From: Devosia subaequoris
GTDB taxonomy: Bacteria; Pseudomonadota; Alphaproteobacteria; Rhizobiales; Devosiaceae
NCBI RefSeq assembly: GCF_014197055.1
Contig: NZ_JACIEW010000009.1
Coordinates: 62,001 to 126,000, forward strand
Reading direction: 5' to 3'
Length of the DNA stretch: 64,000 nucleotides
The translations under genes were made by a program, and so were the position numbers. Below the pieces are notes generated by a model that saw only the letters and a program-made list of their open reading frames with translations, was not told the DNA's origin and did no database searches. Positions 951-6,757 of this stretch are shown piece after piece; positions within the stretch are counted from its first letter, which is position 1; each line of letters opens with the position of its first letter.

Positions 951-1643
951 ATGATTGAAGAACTAACCGTAATGGTCGTTCGTATCCTGGCGTCTCTCAT
1001 CGCCGGTGCGGCTATTGGTTTTGAGCGAGGTTTTCACGGGCGTCCGGCAGGGTTCAGGACGCATGCACTGGTGTGCCTGGCCTCTGCACTCCTGATGCTG
1101 GTCACCGTGTTTCAGGACAGCTGGATGACGCAGGTCGCCATCGAAACCATTCGAACTGACCCGACACGAATGGCGCAAGGCATCATGACCGGGATCGGTT
1201 TCCTCGGGGCCGGCGTGATATTCAAGGAGGGTGCCACTGTGCGCGGTTTGACTACTGCGGCGACAATCTGGATCACCTCAGCCATTGGAGTTCTGATCGG
1301 CATTGGTTTCTATTTTGCCGCCGGCGCCGGTGTGTTTGCCACCCTGTTGGTGCTTTCGGGGCTGCGATGGATTGAGTCACACCTGCCACGAACCTTTCAT
1401 GCTCAACTGGTTGTTCGTTTCGACCGCGAAGCCGCATTGTCAGAAGCAGAATTGCGTGACCTCGTTCTTGAGGAAGGGTTCAGCGCTCAGAACCTTTCGC
1501 ATCGACTCTCGGCTAGTGGTCAGATGGTCGAGTATCGCACCACAATACGCAGTGGTCGCAGCAGGAGCATAGACGGATTGTCACAAAAGCTCCGTGAGCG
1601 ACCACAGGTAAGCGAATACCGGATCATGCCCACTGGAGAGTGA
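951..1643 (+). CDS. MgtC/SapB family inner-membrane protein
   Basis: A 230-residue protein with the MgtC layout. An N-terminal hydrophobic half of about five helices (residues 5-140) contains the family signature: an early GFERGFHGRPAGFRTH stretch, then TGIGFLGAGVIFKEG and VRGLTTAATIWITSAIG. A soluble C-terminal domain follows (about 150-230). MgtC proteins help cells cope with low magnesium, acid and intra-host conditions, partly by acting on the F1Fo ATPase; the exact role here is unknown. The start follows TGGAGTTCC with good spacing. Its 3' end overlaps the convergent NsrR-type gene by 63 bases. Confidence 0.9.
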   Translation: MIEELTVMVVRILASLIAGAAIGFERGFHGRPAGFRTHALVCLASALLMLVTVFQDSWMTQVAIETIRTDPTRMAQGIMTGIGFLGAGVIFKEGATVRGLTTAATIWITSAIGVLIGIGFYFAAGAGVFATLLVLSGLRWIESHLPRTFHAQLVVRFDREAALSEAELRDLVLEEGFSAQNLSHRLSASGQMVEYRTTIRSGRSRSIDGLSQKLRERPQVSEYRIMPTGE

Positions 1644-2186
1644 GGTTGGACTTGCATCTGGTGAGACATTCGAACCGTCTTCGAGAACACAGGCAAAAGT
1701 TGGGGGCAACGTCAGGCTCGCTCCAGTGTCGCTTGGGAGAATGCGCCGGTCAGCCCGACATTCTTTGGTCAGTCCGCTTGGACCGCCTTGTTCGATGGAA
1801 GTGGCGTTAGCCAGCGTTTGCTGATCTGCAACCTCGAGAAAGGCCTGCAGCGCTCGGTCCAGCGTAGCAGGCACTTGGCAGCGATCTGCAAACAGGCACC
1901 ATTCTCCTGCCATGCAGCCGACCAGGGCAAAGCCGGGTTCCGTGACCCTCAACACGTCGCCAAGGGTGATAGCCTCGGGCGGCTTGCCCAGCATCAGGCC
2001 GCCATTGCGCCCTCTGCCGGGCTTGAGAAACCCTTCCTGAGCAAGGCGCTGGGCGACTTTCATCAGATGACTGCGTGATATGGCGTTTGCCTTGGCAGCC
2101 TCGGCGATCGTTGTGCGCTGACCGTCTCGGTCAGCCACATGCATCAGAAGGCGCCAGGCATAGTCGGAGAACTGAGTGAGACGCAT
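1581..2186 (-). CDS. nsrR: Rrf2-family regulator, NsrR type (nitric oxide-sensing), with an unusual C-terminal tail
   Basis: The protein starts MRLTQFSDYAWRLLMHVA, a typical NsrR start; an in-frame ATG six codons upstream is less likely. A winged helix-turn-helix (about residues 25-65, with AISRSHLMKVAQRL and GRGRNGGLMLG) is followed by three cysteines in GCMAGEWCLFADRC (C-X5-C-X5-C), the expected ligands of an Fe-S cluster that reacts with NO. NsrR proteins are usually about 140-150 residues. Here the frame runs on to ~201 residues, and the last ~60 do not look like the family and overlap the 3' end of mgtC. This suggests loss of the normal stop or a late frameshift. It lies downstream of the DoxX-like gene on the same strand and may regulate it. 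Confidence 0.83.
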   Translation of the reverse strand: MRLTQFSDYAWRLLMHVADRDGQRTTIAEAAKANAISRSHLMKVAQRLAQEGFLKPGRGRNGGLMLGKPPEAITLGDVLRVTEPGFALVGCMAGEWCLFADRCQVPATLDRALQAFLEVADQQTLANATSIEQGGPSGLTKECRADRRILPSDTGASLTLPPTFACVLEDGSNVSPDASPTSLSSGHDPVFAYLWSLTELL

Positions 2187-2241: not shown

Positions 2242-3402
2242 CTATTGGGTTGTGGTTGCGCTTTCTGCGTGCGGGTACTCGGCGTTAGGCCGATGGGTTA
2301 GCAACTGCCCTTCGGCAGTCGCGGCTGGCCCCTGGTCCTGATAGTCGTAGAAGGTGCCATGCAATCCCCAGTATGCCCCGGCTATGAGAACCATTGCTGC
2401 CAGAAGGCCGGCGGGCACGCTGCCGATAGCCGGGGTCAGTTTTGGCAGTTTGAGTCCCGATGGCGTCGGATCGGCCGCAATCAGAAACAGGGTACCCATG
2501 ATCAGGGCGTGCCCCACCAGGTCTATGCGACCGAAGGGGTAGACCGCAGCGGTGAAGATGACGATCAGGGCGACCGCCGAAAGCCGACGAATGAGCGAGG
2601 TCCAGAGCAGGCCAAATCCCATGGTGAACTCGGCAACGCCGGCCATCGGAATGAACATGTCGCGTGGCATGCCGAAGGTCAGGAATGGCCGCTCTTCAAC
2701 CAGCGGGTAGAACCATTCGGCATAGGCGAACTTTTCAAGGCTCGACCACATCAGCGCGATTGCAACGCCCCAGCGCAACACGGTGAAGCGATGCTGATAC
2801 CATTTGCTCTCGGGGTCTGCAGCCAGTGCAAGATAGCCCGCAATACCAACGCCAAGGGCCAGATAGTCGAGCAGGTGGAAGAAGTCATAGTCCCGCAGCG
2901 CAATCACCCAGAGCCCGATAATGCCAGCCGCAGCCAGGGGCATGGTGCGCCGCGAAAACACGAGTAGCGCGATCAGGAGCTGCAGCCACGACACCCATTC
3001 GTTCGGGGTCTGAAGATCGGGCGTGAGATAAACGCCGCCCACCGCGAAGATGGCCACGAAGAAGGCGCCGATGACCGCCCGCATGAAATCGTCGCCGCGC
3101 CGCCAAAGCGGCAGGGTCAGGCGTTCAAGCATACCGTTGACCGGGGTCGCAGAGGGGCTGCGTTCCACCAGAACGGTGGCGGCGAAAAACACCAGAACCA
3201 GCGCAATCCCTGCCCAGAACCAGCCATTGGCGAGGGTGTCGGTAATGGGGGCGGGTGCAGCGCCCACCACATAGGGCGCGAACCACTTCACATGGGCATG
3301 GGCCGGGCCGGCGGCCATGAGGGTCGCAATCAAGGCGGTGAAGGAAAGGCCCAGAGCCGTCCGTATGGGTGTGCGGCTCCGGGGTTCATTATTGTCTGCC
3401 AC
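2242..3402 (-). CDS. DoxX-like polytopic membrane protein, probably part of an NO/low-oxygen response
   Basis: Using the GTG at 3402 (preceded by GGAGCTTGAC), the product is 386 residues. A signal-like first helix ends in AHAHVKWFAPYV, then roughly nine more membrane helices follow with short charged loops. The second half contains WGVAIALMWSSLEKFAYAEWF and GVAEFTMGFGLLW, as in DoxX/DoxD-type quinone-linked membrane proteins. An upstream ATG (3453) is possible, but it would fall inside the NsrR-like operator. No enzymatic function can be assigned from sequence. The promoter sites and the adjacent nsrR suggest induction by NO or low oxygen. Confidence 0.68.
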   Translation of the reverse strand: MADNNEPRSRTPIRTALGLSFTALIATLMAAGPAHAHVKWFAPYVVGAAPAPITDTLANGWFWAGIALVLVFFAATVLVERSPSATPVNGMLERLTLPLWRRGDDFMRAVIGAFFVAIFAVGGVYLTPDLQTPNEWVSWLQLLIALLVFSRRTMPLAAAGIIGLWVIALRDYDFFHLLDYLALGVGIAGYLALAADPESKWYQHRFTVLRWGVAIALMWSSLEKFAYAEWFYPLVEERPFLTFGMPRDMFIPMAGVAEFTMGFGLLWTSLIRRLSAVALIVIFTAAVYPFGRIDLVGHALIMGTLFLIAADPTPSGLKLPKLTPAIGSVPAGLLAAMVLIAGAYWGLHGTFYDYQDQGPAATAEGQLLTHRPNAEYPHAESATTTQ

Positions 3403-3448
3403 GTCAAGCTCCGTTTGATCTGTGCGTGCTGCAAATGGGAGCCTTCTA

Positions 3449-3471
3449 AACATTCATTTCTGCTGCATCTT
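3449..3471. promoter_or_regulatory. NsrR-like operator
   Basis: Two 11-base half sites separated by one base: AACATTCATTT and TGCTGCATCTT. Read on the minus strand the arms become AAGATGCAGCA and AAATGAATGTT. These match the published NsrR pattern AAGATGCATTT-N-AAATGCATCTT at 17 of 22 arm positions by eye. The site overlaps a minus-strand -10-like TTTAGA (3450-3445), a good position for repression of the DoxX-like gene. Confidence 0.6.
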
Positions 3472-3484
3472 TGATCTCGATCAA
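3471..3484. promoter_or_regulatory. Fnr/Anr-type box
   Basis: TTGATCTCGATCAA is a perfect match to the Fnr consensus TTGAT-N4-ATCAA. Its centre is about 40 bases upstream of the start point predicted from the minus-strand TTTAGA at 3450-3445, close to the classical -41.5 activating position. It adjoins the NsrR-like site, so activation by Fnr and repression by NsrR of the DoxX-like gene can be proposed. Confidence 0.7.
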
Positions 3485-3544: not shown

Positions 3545-3988
3545 ATGGATGTCTTGAAGCTCGGTACGGCATCTCTGCTGGCAGTCGCTTTCGCCGGTGC
3601 GCTTCTGGTACGGGACCAGCCGGCGAGCGAAGTTGCTGCCCTACCATTGCCGTCCGTCTGCGGCGACGTGCATTCGGATCATGGCGGTGTTTCCATGCAA
3701 GAGCATCTCGACATCATGGCCGAGGGCCAAAGCGAGGAGATTGCGGCCCTGATCCAGACGATGGAGCCGATGCATTCCGACATGATGCGCGGCATGACGG
3801 CAGCCGATTTTCAGACCGCCTTTGTCTGTTCCATGATCCCGCACCACCAGGGCGCCGTAGAAATGGCGCAAGTCGCGCAGACCTATGCGACAGACCCATG
3901 GATCCAGATGTTCGCCCAGGAGATCATCAGCGCGCAACAGGTTGAGATCGCCGAAATGCAGGCCTGGCTAGCGCGAAGGCATCAATAA
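3545..3988 (+). CDS. DUF305 (CopM-like) exported protein
   Basis: The ATG at 3545 follows AGAAGGA at seven bases. The 147-residue product has an N-terminal hydrophobic segment, so it is exported or anchored. The DUF305 domain follows, with EHLDIMAEGQSEEI, MEPMHSDMMRGM and the hallmark MIPHHQGAVEMAQ. The Met/His-rich pairs resemble copper-binding DUF305 proteins such as CopM, so a periplasmic metal-binding role is likely but not shown. It is divergent from the DoxX-like gene and shares the upstream region containing the Fnr/NsrR boxes. Confidence 0.82.
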   Translation: MDVLKLGTASLLAVAFAGALLVRDQPASEVAALPLPSVCGDVHSDHGGVSMQEHLDIMAEGQSEEIAALIQTMEPMHSDMMRGMTAADFQTAFVCSMIPHHQGAVEMAQVAQTYATDPWIQMFAQEIISAQQVEIAEMQAWLARRHQ

Positions 3989-4353: not shown

Positions 4354-4709
4354 GTGCACATCCACCATCCGGTCGTAGTCGCAGTTTTCATGCTCATCCT
4401 CCCGCCCATACTTTCGGAATGCGCGGCCGATATGACGCCGAGACTACCGGTGGCTGAAAATATAGTGGTATGCGCGGTGATTTATGGTGGGCTTGAACAG
4501 TTCAACCAAGAGGATGGAGGAAACCCCTATAAGGAGAGGATATACGGTCACCGGTTTGACGTTCTTGCTGCGGAGGCCACAAGGCAGTTTGGGGCTGAGA
4601 TCGCACAGGCAAAGATGCAGGACTATGCGAACGCTCTGGGTGCTGAATTTGAACGAGTAGGCTACTATCTTCGCCTACCTCTAGGCCTAGATCAGTGTGA
4701 AGAGGAGTT
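4354..4709 (+). pseudogene. Hypothetical exported protein, 3' end lost at the IS66 junction
   Basis: A GTG at 4354 follows GAGGAAAGA. The first ~24 residues are hydrophobic and end in ILSEC, which resembles a lipobox, so an exported lipoprotein is plausible. About 118 residues have normal protein composition (for example EAEIAQAKMQ-like charged helices and YGHRFDVLAAEATRQFG). At about 4710 the frame enters antisense IS66 transposase DNA and reads on as Arg-rich nonsense to 4878, so the natural C-terminus is missing. Family not recognised. Confidence 0.5.
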
Positions 4710-5944
4710 TTCAGTGCCTCCCCGAGCGGCGCTTTTGCGGAGACGCGGGCGCGATGATAGTCGAGCCATTCTCTTATTCGTGCGGCGACCGGTGCTGATC
4801 GCTGCTGGCGAGCGGCGAGGCGGTTATCCGGGCCCAGGCCTCGGATATCGGCTTCAATGGCATAGAGCTCGCCGATGAGCCGCACACCCTCTTCTGCAAT
4901 CGGGGCAGTGCCGGCGCGTGTGATCTCAACCAGCTTGCGCCGAGCATGGGCCCAACAATAGGCGAGCTGGATACCCGGGCCGACGCGGTCGGGCGCGATC
5001 AGTCGGTTATAGCCGGCATAACCGTCGACCTGCAGAATGCCGCCAAAGCCCTGCAATATCCGTTCGGCATGAAGGCCACCTCGGCCCGGGGCATAGGTGA
5101 AGGCCACACCGGGTGGTGCGGTGCCATTCCAGGGACGATCATCGCGGGCCAAAGCCCAGAAGTATCCGGTCTTGGTTTTTCGCGCCCCAGGATCGAGCAC
5201 CGGCGCGCGGGTTTCGTCCATGAACAGCTTCGATGACCGTTTCAGGTCCGCCATCAGGGCATCGTAGACCGGACGCAGCTCGAATGCGGCCCGACCGACC
5301 CAATCGGCCAGCGTTGATCTATCCAGATCAATACCCTGACGGCTGTAGATTTGCGCCTGGCGATAGAGCGGGAGGTGATCGGCATATTTGCTGACCAGGA
5401 CATGGGCGACCATGGCCTCGGTCGGCAGCCCGCCCGGGATCAACCGCGCAGGGGCGGGAGCCTGCACCACCCCGTCGGTGCATGAGCGGCAGGCATATTT
5501 GGGGCGGCGGGTGACGATCACCCGGAACTGGGCCGGGATCACGTCGAGCCGCTCAGAGACGTCCTCGCCAATGCAATGCAGACCGCCGCCGCAGCCACAG
5601 ACCAGGCTTTCGGGTTCGATGATCTCCTCGATCCGCGGTAAGTGCTTGGGGAGCGAACCACGATTGGCGCTGCGCCGCTTGGCCGGTCGCCGGGCGGCGC
5701 GATCCTCGGCTTCGTCCTCGGCGTGGACGGCCGCGATGGCCGTTTCCAGATCTTCCAGCGCCAGTTCGAACTGGTCCGGATCGCTCTTTTCCGATCGGCG
5801 CCCGAAGGCCGCTTGCTTGAACGCGGCAACCAGCTTTTCCAACTGGGCGATCCGCTCATCCTTGCGCTGATCGCGTAACGCCGCAGCGACAAGCATCGCC
5901 TTGAGGGCGGCAATGTCGTCGGGGAGTTCGGCGGTATCGAGCAT
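4710..5944 (-). pseudogene. tnpC: IS66 transposase TnpC, C-terminally truncated
   Basis: The coding part gives ~410 residues. There is an N-terminal coiled coil (about 18-60), an HTH/linker, a zinc-finger-like CGCGGGLHC...CRSC region (about 115-155) and the DDE catalytic core, with the first Asp in LFMDETR and the second in LQVDGYAGY. The match ends at PLGEALK near 4710, before the region that normally holds the catalytic Glu (N-x-x-ER), so the enzyme must be inactive. The frame continues to 4502 only by chance. Confidence 0.88.
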
Positions 5945-6013
5945 GACCGGAATCTACCAGATCAGGCGCCGCCACACCCGCAAAAAGAGAAGCCCTGAGT
6001 CATCCTGCCGCAG

Positions 6014-6367
6014 TCATTCCACGGCTTCTGGAGCCCGCGCTTCCACGGCCCGAACCCGCCGCCAGTCGAGCCCGGAGAACAGGGCCTCGAACTGCGCGTG
6101 GCTAAGCGTCATCAGCCCGTCCTTCACTGCAGGCCAGGTGAACTCATGCTCTTCGAGCCGCTTGTAGGCCATGACCAACCCGGTGCCATCCCAGTAGAGC
6201 AGCTTCAGCCGGTCGGTCTTCCTGGCGCGGAACACAAAGACCGTGCCGGTGAACAGGTCCTTGTGCAGCTCGTTCTTCACCATCGCCGCCAGGCTGTCAT
6301 GGCCCTTGCGGAAGTCGATCGGCTTGGTCGCCACCATTACCCGTACTCGGTTGGAGGGGAAGATCAT
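6014..6367 (-). CDS. tnpB: IS66 accessory protein TnpB
   Basis: 117 residues, the usual length for the IS66 Orf2/TnpB family, starting MIFPSNRVRVMVATKPIDFRKG with the family motifs VFVFRARKTDRLKLLYWDGTG and YKRLE. It is required for IS66 transposition in studied members although its biochemistry is unclear. The ATG overlaps the tnpA stop by four bases, giving translational coupling. The gene is intact, but its partners are broken. Confidence 0.9.
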   Translation of the reverse strand: MIFPSNRVRVMVATKPIDFRKGHDSLAAMVKNELHKDLFTGTVFVFRARKTDRLKLLYWDGTGLVMAYKRLEEHEFTWPAVKDGLMTLSHAQFEALFSGLDWRRVRAVEARAPEAVE

Positions 6368-6757
6368 GAGGCCGCCATCAGCGCATGGACCACCGAGGCA
6401 ATCCGGGCCGCCGAAGCGCCTGGCTCCAGCCGGATGGTCACTGAACCCACAACGACCTCCGGCCCAGCCGATACCGCCGGCTCCGCCGCCGCCAGTGCCT
6501 CATCAACGGGATCGACCATCAGCGTCGCAAATTCCACAGCATCCTCTGGTGCCGGCAGCACCAGTTTCCCGTTCCGCGCAAGGGTTCGCCAAGAGGAGAC
6601 ATGGTTGGCCTTCAGCCCATGCCGCTCCGCAACTTCACTGACGGTCGCCCCCCGGCCGCAAAGTCTCGGCGACAATCCGCGCCTTCACCGCATCAGGCCA
6701 CTGCCGATTGCGACGCCGCCTCCCGCCACTTGTGAGAAGCTCCATTGGAGCGTCCAT
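6364..6757 (-). pseudogene. tnpA: IS66 TnpA (HTH protein), frameshifted
   Basis: Starting at the ATG at 6757, the frame reads a basic N-terminus and an HTH start (NRQWPDAVKARIVAETLRPG). It must then shift by one base within a run of six G/C near 6650 to continue as GATVSEVAERHGLKANHVSSWRTLARNGKLVLP. The C-terminal half is intact to 6364. One extra base in the homopolymer explains the break; a sequencing error in the run is the alternative. TnpA normally supplies DNA binding for IS66. Confidence 0.8.

Follow-up and report, generated by a model that had tools for sequence, protein, structure and literature searches.

A probable Fnr-activated, NsrR-repressed promoter in front of a DoxX-like membrane protein gene in Devosia

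The DoxX-like gene and its neighbours

The window, that is, the whole 64-kb stretch of Devosia subaequoris DNA that was analysed, carries on its minus strand a gene for a DoxX-like (DoxX/MauE/HTTM-type) membrane protein (2242–3402) and, just downstream as the first-pass annotation had it, a gene for an Rrf2-family regulator, nsrR (1581–2186), whose start at 2186 lies 55 bp beyond the doxX-like stop. A divergent gene on the plus strand (3545–3988), absent from that annotation, encodes a secreted protein of the DUF305 family (CopM-type, Cu(I)-binding fold). Near the DUF305 gene lies an IS66 element (4502–6675) with a truncated transposase frame (4502–5944) and TnpB (6014–6367).

For the doxX-like gene, the GTG at 3402 is the most likely start codon, behind a Shine–Dalgarno sequence, GGAG (3409–3412, minus strand), that was read from the sequence and is kept in most Devosia orthologues. 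An ATG at 3453 was rejected as the start because it lies inside the repressor site described below and because the start behind GGAG, further downstream, is the one that the orthologues favour. A signal peptide is predicted, with cleavage between AHA and HVKWF. Since every one of the 80 orthologues carries Ala followed by HVKWF at this point, and nearly all of them AxA, the mature protein probably begins with His. Five further histidines, H140, H262, H312, H334 and H342, are invariant. Histidine-brace copper proteins are marked by an N-terminal His exposed by signal-peptide removal together with a second, copper-chelating His. The main text of a 'signal-strapping' survey of N-terminal-His proteins makes no mention of DoxX.

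The label 'DoxX-like' given in the first-pass annotation holds as a distant likeness at the level of the superfamily, but not as membership of DoxX proper: the window protein has no match to any Pfam model, those for DoxX and NnrS included, even at an E-value of 10, and among 28 relatives only three give a match, a weak one to MauE (best 1.1e-5). A profile of the DoxX-like proteins found no match among PDB sequences. The predicted model has a pLDDT of 79.8, with residues 1–9 below 50. Its nearest solved fold is the membrane domain of the vitamin-K-dependent carboxylase GGCX (Z 10.7, rmsd 5.0 over 232 residues; next unrelated fold Z 5.2; Foldseek E 0.34), a likeness that is suggestive and lies below the level that is safe for helical bundles, which can reach Z 13 by arrangement alone. 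No relatives of the locus were found in viral contigs. In sum, these proteins make up a genuine and conserved family that is uncharacterised.

The window DUF305 protein matches PF03713 (E 2e-18), carries the motif MIPHHQGA and resembles CopM (5fej, 5e-16); its score against the NCBIfam CopM model is 82.2 bits, just under the cut-off of 90. The gene is divergent in Devosia, and in many other genera the domain is joined to the C-terminus of the DoxX-like protein; this fused domain shares 47% identity with the Cu(I)-bound chain of 7vw1. The two genes probably form one unit. Based on the conserved N-terminal His, the invariant histidines and the Cu(I)-binding DUF305 fold, a copper-related role of the pair may reasonably be inferred.

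The NsrR-type and FNR-type regulators

The linked regulator contains an Rrf2 domain (PF02082, E 4e-24), and its top PDB match is the NsrR of Streptomyces coelicolor (ScNsrR, 5n07). D8 and CMAGEWCLFADRC, which forms a CX5CX5C motif, align to the residues that ligate the cluster in ScNsrR, namely D8 and CX5CX5C (PMC5411485). Further, its recognition helix, SRSHLMKV, is close to that of Escherichia coli NsrR, SRNHMVKI (SRxHxxK). Against the NCBIfam NsrR equivalog, NF008240, the protein scores 97.6 bits, below the cut-off of 182, which serves for naming and does not describe a property of the protein itself; against the RirA model it scores 107.4 bits, slightly more and likewise below the cut-off (193). 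Because the cut-offs are not reached and the position of the protein in a tree is poorly resolved, its assignment as NsrR-type is based on the ligands, the operator and the context. The conserved core of the gene spans 1806–2186. The remainder of the frame (1581–1805, minus strand) adds a C-terminal tail of about 70 residues that orthologues do not have and that overlaps the end of a convergent mgtC-like gene; a frameshift or the loss of a stop codon is a possible origin.

The genome encodes a separate RirA-like protein (L206) with N8, CX6C spacing and another recognition helix. It also has a canonical FNR-type gene (L183:9457–10254), close to cydAB/cydDC, with the N-terminal Cys motif CQSCEARHQGIC and an ETVSR helix. 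Searches of the genome for NorB, NirK, NnrS and full-length Hmp gave no match, and these count as weak negatives.

Paired Fnr and NsrR-type sites

The first-pass annotation had described a perfect Fnr palindrome adjoining a 23-base NsrR-like site in front of the doxX-like gene, and both are there. The Fnr box, TTGATCTCGATCAA (3471–3484), is the sole copy of TTGATN4ATCAA without mismatch in the 64-kb window. The operator, AAGATGCAGCAGAAATGAATGTT (3449–3471, minus strand), agrees with the consensus AAGATGCAT-N5-ATGCATCTT at 15 of 18 positions, and the two sites overlap by one base (3471). On the minus strand, the region between the DUF305 and DoxX-like genes reads TTGATCGAGATCAA-AGATGCAGCAGAAATGAATGTTTAGAAGG: the first 14 bases are the Fnr palindrome, the 23-mer begins with its last base, and the hexamer TAGAAG follows.

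A scan of the window, which the annotation had proposed as a check, ranks both sites as the best of their kind: 3471–3484 is the best-scoring Fnr-type site, and 3449–3471 has the top score of all 23-mers, the runner-up reaching 13 of 18. When the 142-bp intergenic region was dinucleotide-shuffled 20,000 times, the Fnr score was reached in 21 cases, the NsrR score in seven and both together in none. We therefore regard the observation of paired sites as confirmed. Genome-wide statements on motifs come from pattern searches. By these, the 3.79-Mb genome holds three perfect TTGATN4ATCAA sequences; elsewhere, one is common to cydAB and cydDC, beside the FNR-type gene, and one inside the open frame of a class V aminotransferase (L182) is probably a chance occurrence. 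The genome has only one other site with at most three mismatches to the NsrR consensus, and it was set aside since it lies within the reading frame of thymidylate synthase (L184).

The hexamer TAGAAG (3443–3448, minus strand) is a candidate -10 element of the doxX-like promoter, and its TA is kept in most Devosia orthologues. The NsrR-like site had been said to overlap a minus-strand -10 sequence; such a sequence does adjoin it, but TAGAAG abuts the 23-mer and does not overlap it. The distance from the centre of TAGAAG to that of the Fnr box is exactly 32 bp, which matches the -10 distance expected for Fnr bound at -41.5, and transcription is predicted to start near 3436. Between operator and start codon most Devosia orthologues carry an inverted repeat, CTGCA-N4/5-TGCAG, that is possibly a hairpin in the 5' leader. 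At the same place in the window (about 3418–3433, minus strand) the repeat is weak.

Conservation in Devosia

The search upstream of orthologues bore out the earlier observation. The pair of sites is kept with constant spacing in at least 13 Devosia species, and the distances between Fnr box, abutting palindrome and the TA of the -10 element are fixed among the orthologues. In the alignment of these regions each column of the Fnr box carries about 1.6 bits of information and each of the NsrR-type site about 1.1, compared with mostly about 0.3 in the flanks (0.4 furthest upstream), values that are lowered by one misaligned row (L061). The window operator, with its three mismatches, is among the weaker versions. 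A perfect palindrome is found in the orthologues L057/L038 and L047 (genomes of D. pacifica and G026), and that of D. pacifica (L057), AAGATGCATCGCCGATGCATCTT, agrees throughout with the NsrR consensus given by Rodionov et al. (PMC1274295). Both half-sites are altered symmetrically in the D. soli group, to AACATGCA..TGCATGTT.

Two Devosia loci (L063 in genome G032 and L050 in G058) have neither the palindrome nor a linked nsrR nor the divergent DUF305 gene, and retain TTGACN4GTCAA. Most degenerate operators belong to loci without an adjacent nsrR (L060, L066, L052); an exception is Devosia sp. Leaf420 (L064), which has kept the palindrome (15 of 18) with no linked nsrR. Across 20 Devosia genomes, every operator with no or one mismatch sits at the doxX-like promoter and nowhere else, so that the NsrR circuit of the genus looks nearly single-target.

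Incomplete copies of the doxX-like gene occur at two loci. Devosia sediminis has a second, decayed copy (L041:11785–12743), about 94% identical to that of the window and broken near residue 113, some 9 kb from an intact one, which suggests recent transfer within Devosia. In another genome (L186, G002:C5:5791–6307) the nsrR orthologue (88%) is kept and the DoxX-like protein is reduced to its last 26 residues.

Orthologous loci in other genera

The neighbourhoods of 80 named orthologue loci were counted over about 6 kb; many of these belong to a single genus, Microvirga, and the counts are not independent. Rrf2 genes occur near 23 of them, group III-type truncated haemoglobins near 28, flavohaemoglobins near three and NnrS near two, while a norEF-doxX-norCBQD cluster is found in two (Neorhizobium alkalisoli and a Rhizobiales isolate). 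In all, 32 of the 80 loci have an NO gene, 42 have an NO gene or Rrf2 and 38 have neither within this distance.

Of 16 loci with linked Rrf2 in other genera, nine have a 23-bp palindrome of autoregulatory type at -40 or -41 relative to the start of rrf2, often as a variant such as AATAGGTATTGTAAATGCCTATT. Among loci with no linked Rrf2, 8 of 54 have TTGAYN4RTCAA upstream, against 0.27 expected for the same loci, and low-oxygen or NO-type control by CRP/FNR proteins may therefore reach beyond Devosia.

On a conjugative plasmid of Comamonas antarctica (L032:2334–6419), Rrf2, NnrS, a group III truncated haemoglobin, a cupin and a DoxX-DUF305 fusion lie together; judged from its gene content, this region is an NO-defence island in a betaproteobacterium. 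NnrS lies within 6 kb of the DoxX-like gene at two other loci as well (L107, L128). In Rhodobacterales, a gene of a small uncharacterised family, DUF6522, separates rrf2 from the DoxX-like gene and lies about 400 bp ahead of the latter (L108, L111, L122, L126, L128). In Mesorhizobium sp. NBSH29 the DUF6522 gene comes after the DoxX-like gene (L034:6725–7045), and this locus adjoins a heavy-metal P-type ATPase.

Proposed circuit and alternative explanations

Positions 3443–3484 very likely constitute a class II promoter, activated by Fnr and repressed by NsrR, from which the doxX-like gene and nsrR would be transcribed as an operon. The arrangement is one that the first-pass annotation had already considered to fit activation by Fnr and repression by NsrR, and it does so with the operator lying downstream of an Fnr box at about -41.5 and ahead of the -10 element. 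Without oxygen, [4Fe-4S]-Fnr would bind the box and activate transcription. As long as there is no NO, [Fe-S]-NsrR would occupy the adjoining palindrome (about -13 to -35), blocking RNA polymerase and possibly Fnr. NO would destroy the NsrR cluster and release the doxX-like operon, nsrR included. As nsrR probably lies within the operon that it regulates, negative autoregulation would then let repression recover. Expression would peak at low oxygen in the presence of NO, since Fnr activates without oxygen and NO removes NsrR. Further, the base common to the two sites means that NsrR may exclude Fnr and thereby, we conjecture, silence the divergent DUF305 promoter too. The DoxX-like product would be a periplasm-facing membrane protein of NO-defence operons, probably working with the Cu(I)-binding DUF305 protein. 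Its adjoining control sites, and the fact that relatives keep the gene beside NO-defence genes, make it probably a new part of NO defence.

The probability that the motifs stand together by chance is negligible. Fnr-like palindromes with at most one mismatch are indeed expected about once per window; however, the joint shuffles and the conservation of both sites at fixed spacing across the genus rule out such an origin of the pair. It is improbable, too, that the linked regulator responds to iron or Fe-S status in the manner of RirA or IscR, the operon then answering iron or oxidative stress rather than NO. The slightly higher raw score for RirA would fit this reading, with both scores under their cut-offs, but D8 and CX5CX5C match NsrR while the separate RirA-like protein differs, the operator is NsrR-type with no TGA-N9-TCA iron box in the intergenic region, and the neighbours in other genera are NO genes.

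Two further explanations are possible, though we favour neither. The Fnr box, being symmetric, could serve mainly the DUF305 gene, or both genes equally, with NsrR controlling both through steric competition with Fnr. CATAGT or CATGGT lies about 32 bp from the Fnr centre on the DUF305 side in several Devosia orthologues, and the fusion of DUF305 to the DoxX-like protein in other genera leads one to expect their co-expression. However, the corresponding hexamer in the window is weak (CAATGT), its conservation is only moderate and the operator stands only on the side of the doxX-like gene. The other explanation, about equally doubtful, concerns function: rather than being an NO protein, the DoxX-like protein could handle copper or oxidise Cu(I), and be induced because NO and low oxygen raise toxic Cu(I). 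Several points speak for it: DUF305, as a fused domain or a partner, has a cuprous-ion-binding protein as its nearest solved relative; the mature N-terminal His and five more histidines are invariant; a heavy-metal P-type ATPase lies beside the Mesorhizobium gene; and a similar proposal exists for the DoxX-like protein GigT of Cupriavidus under copper stress (PMC10304878). Yet the recurrent linkage is to NO genes, and copper genes are found at one locus only.

More speculatively, and in our view rather unlikely, the DoxX-like/DUF305 pair would be a new type of NO-responsive, quinone-interacting membrane metalloprotein of NO-defence operons in Alpha- and some Betaproteobacteria, with a copper site at the N-terminal His and a Cu(I)-binding DUF305 part, that either removes NO or keeps periplasmic copper harmless.

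The Fnr/NsrR promoter reading would add a widespread, highly conserved and uncharacterised membrane protein family to NO defence. The apparently single-target NsrR/Fnr circuit of this soil bacterium would make a clean test case, and the DUF305 fusion together with the invariant N-terminal His offers a concrete starting point for linking copper to NO tolerance.

Comparison with known systems

The literature searched, which largely lacked subscription papers, held no report of DoxX in connection with NsrR or NO, in keeping with the earlier remark that a DoxX-like gene is not a standard NsrR target, and no description was found there of DUF305 fused to a DoxX-like membrane domain. As far as that literature goes, the DoxX-like target is new to the NsrR regulon, and the promoter logic is already known from enterobacterial hcp.

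Among membrane and copper proteins, GigT of C. metallidurans is, by its description, another membrane protein with a distant likeness to DoxX; together with quinol and a partner protein it is proposed to work on Cu(I) in the periplasm, passing electrons from Cu(I) to quinol (PMC10304878). It differs in that it belongs to the operon gigPABT, is induced by copper and gold and has 3–4 predicted spans. The DUF305 partner, or fused domain, is shared with the periplasmic copper proteins CopM (5fej) and 7vw1; those solved proteins are stand-alone chains, and CopM serves copper resistance. NnrS is similarly a membrane protein of NO-responsive operons with an uncertain function, but the DoxX-like protein, which does not match it in Pfam, co-occurs with it in Comamonas and at the two further loci given above.

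With the NsrR of S. coelicolor (5n07) the Devosia regulator has in common the Rrf2 fold, D8, CX5CX5C, a 23-bp operator and a very small regulon (PMC5411485, PMC9338935). There the targets are, by the same sources, two hmp genes and nsrR itself, whereas in Devosia the target is a DoxX-like gene and no full hmp was found in the genome. The closest precedent is the hcp-hcr promoter of enterobacteria, with an FNR site upstream and an NsrR site downstream (Rodionov et al. 2005, PMC1274295). Its motifs and their order are the same, the NsrR palindrome gATGyAT-N5-ATrCATc following the FNR site. In Devosia, however, the sites abut and share a base, nsrR is probably part of the operon under control, and the place of the hybrid cluster protein is taken by an uncharacterised membrane protein.
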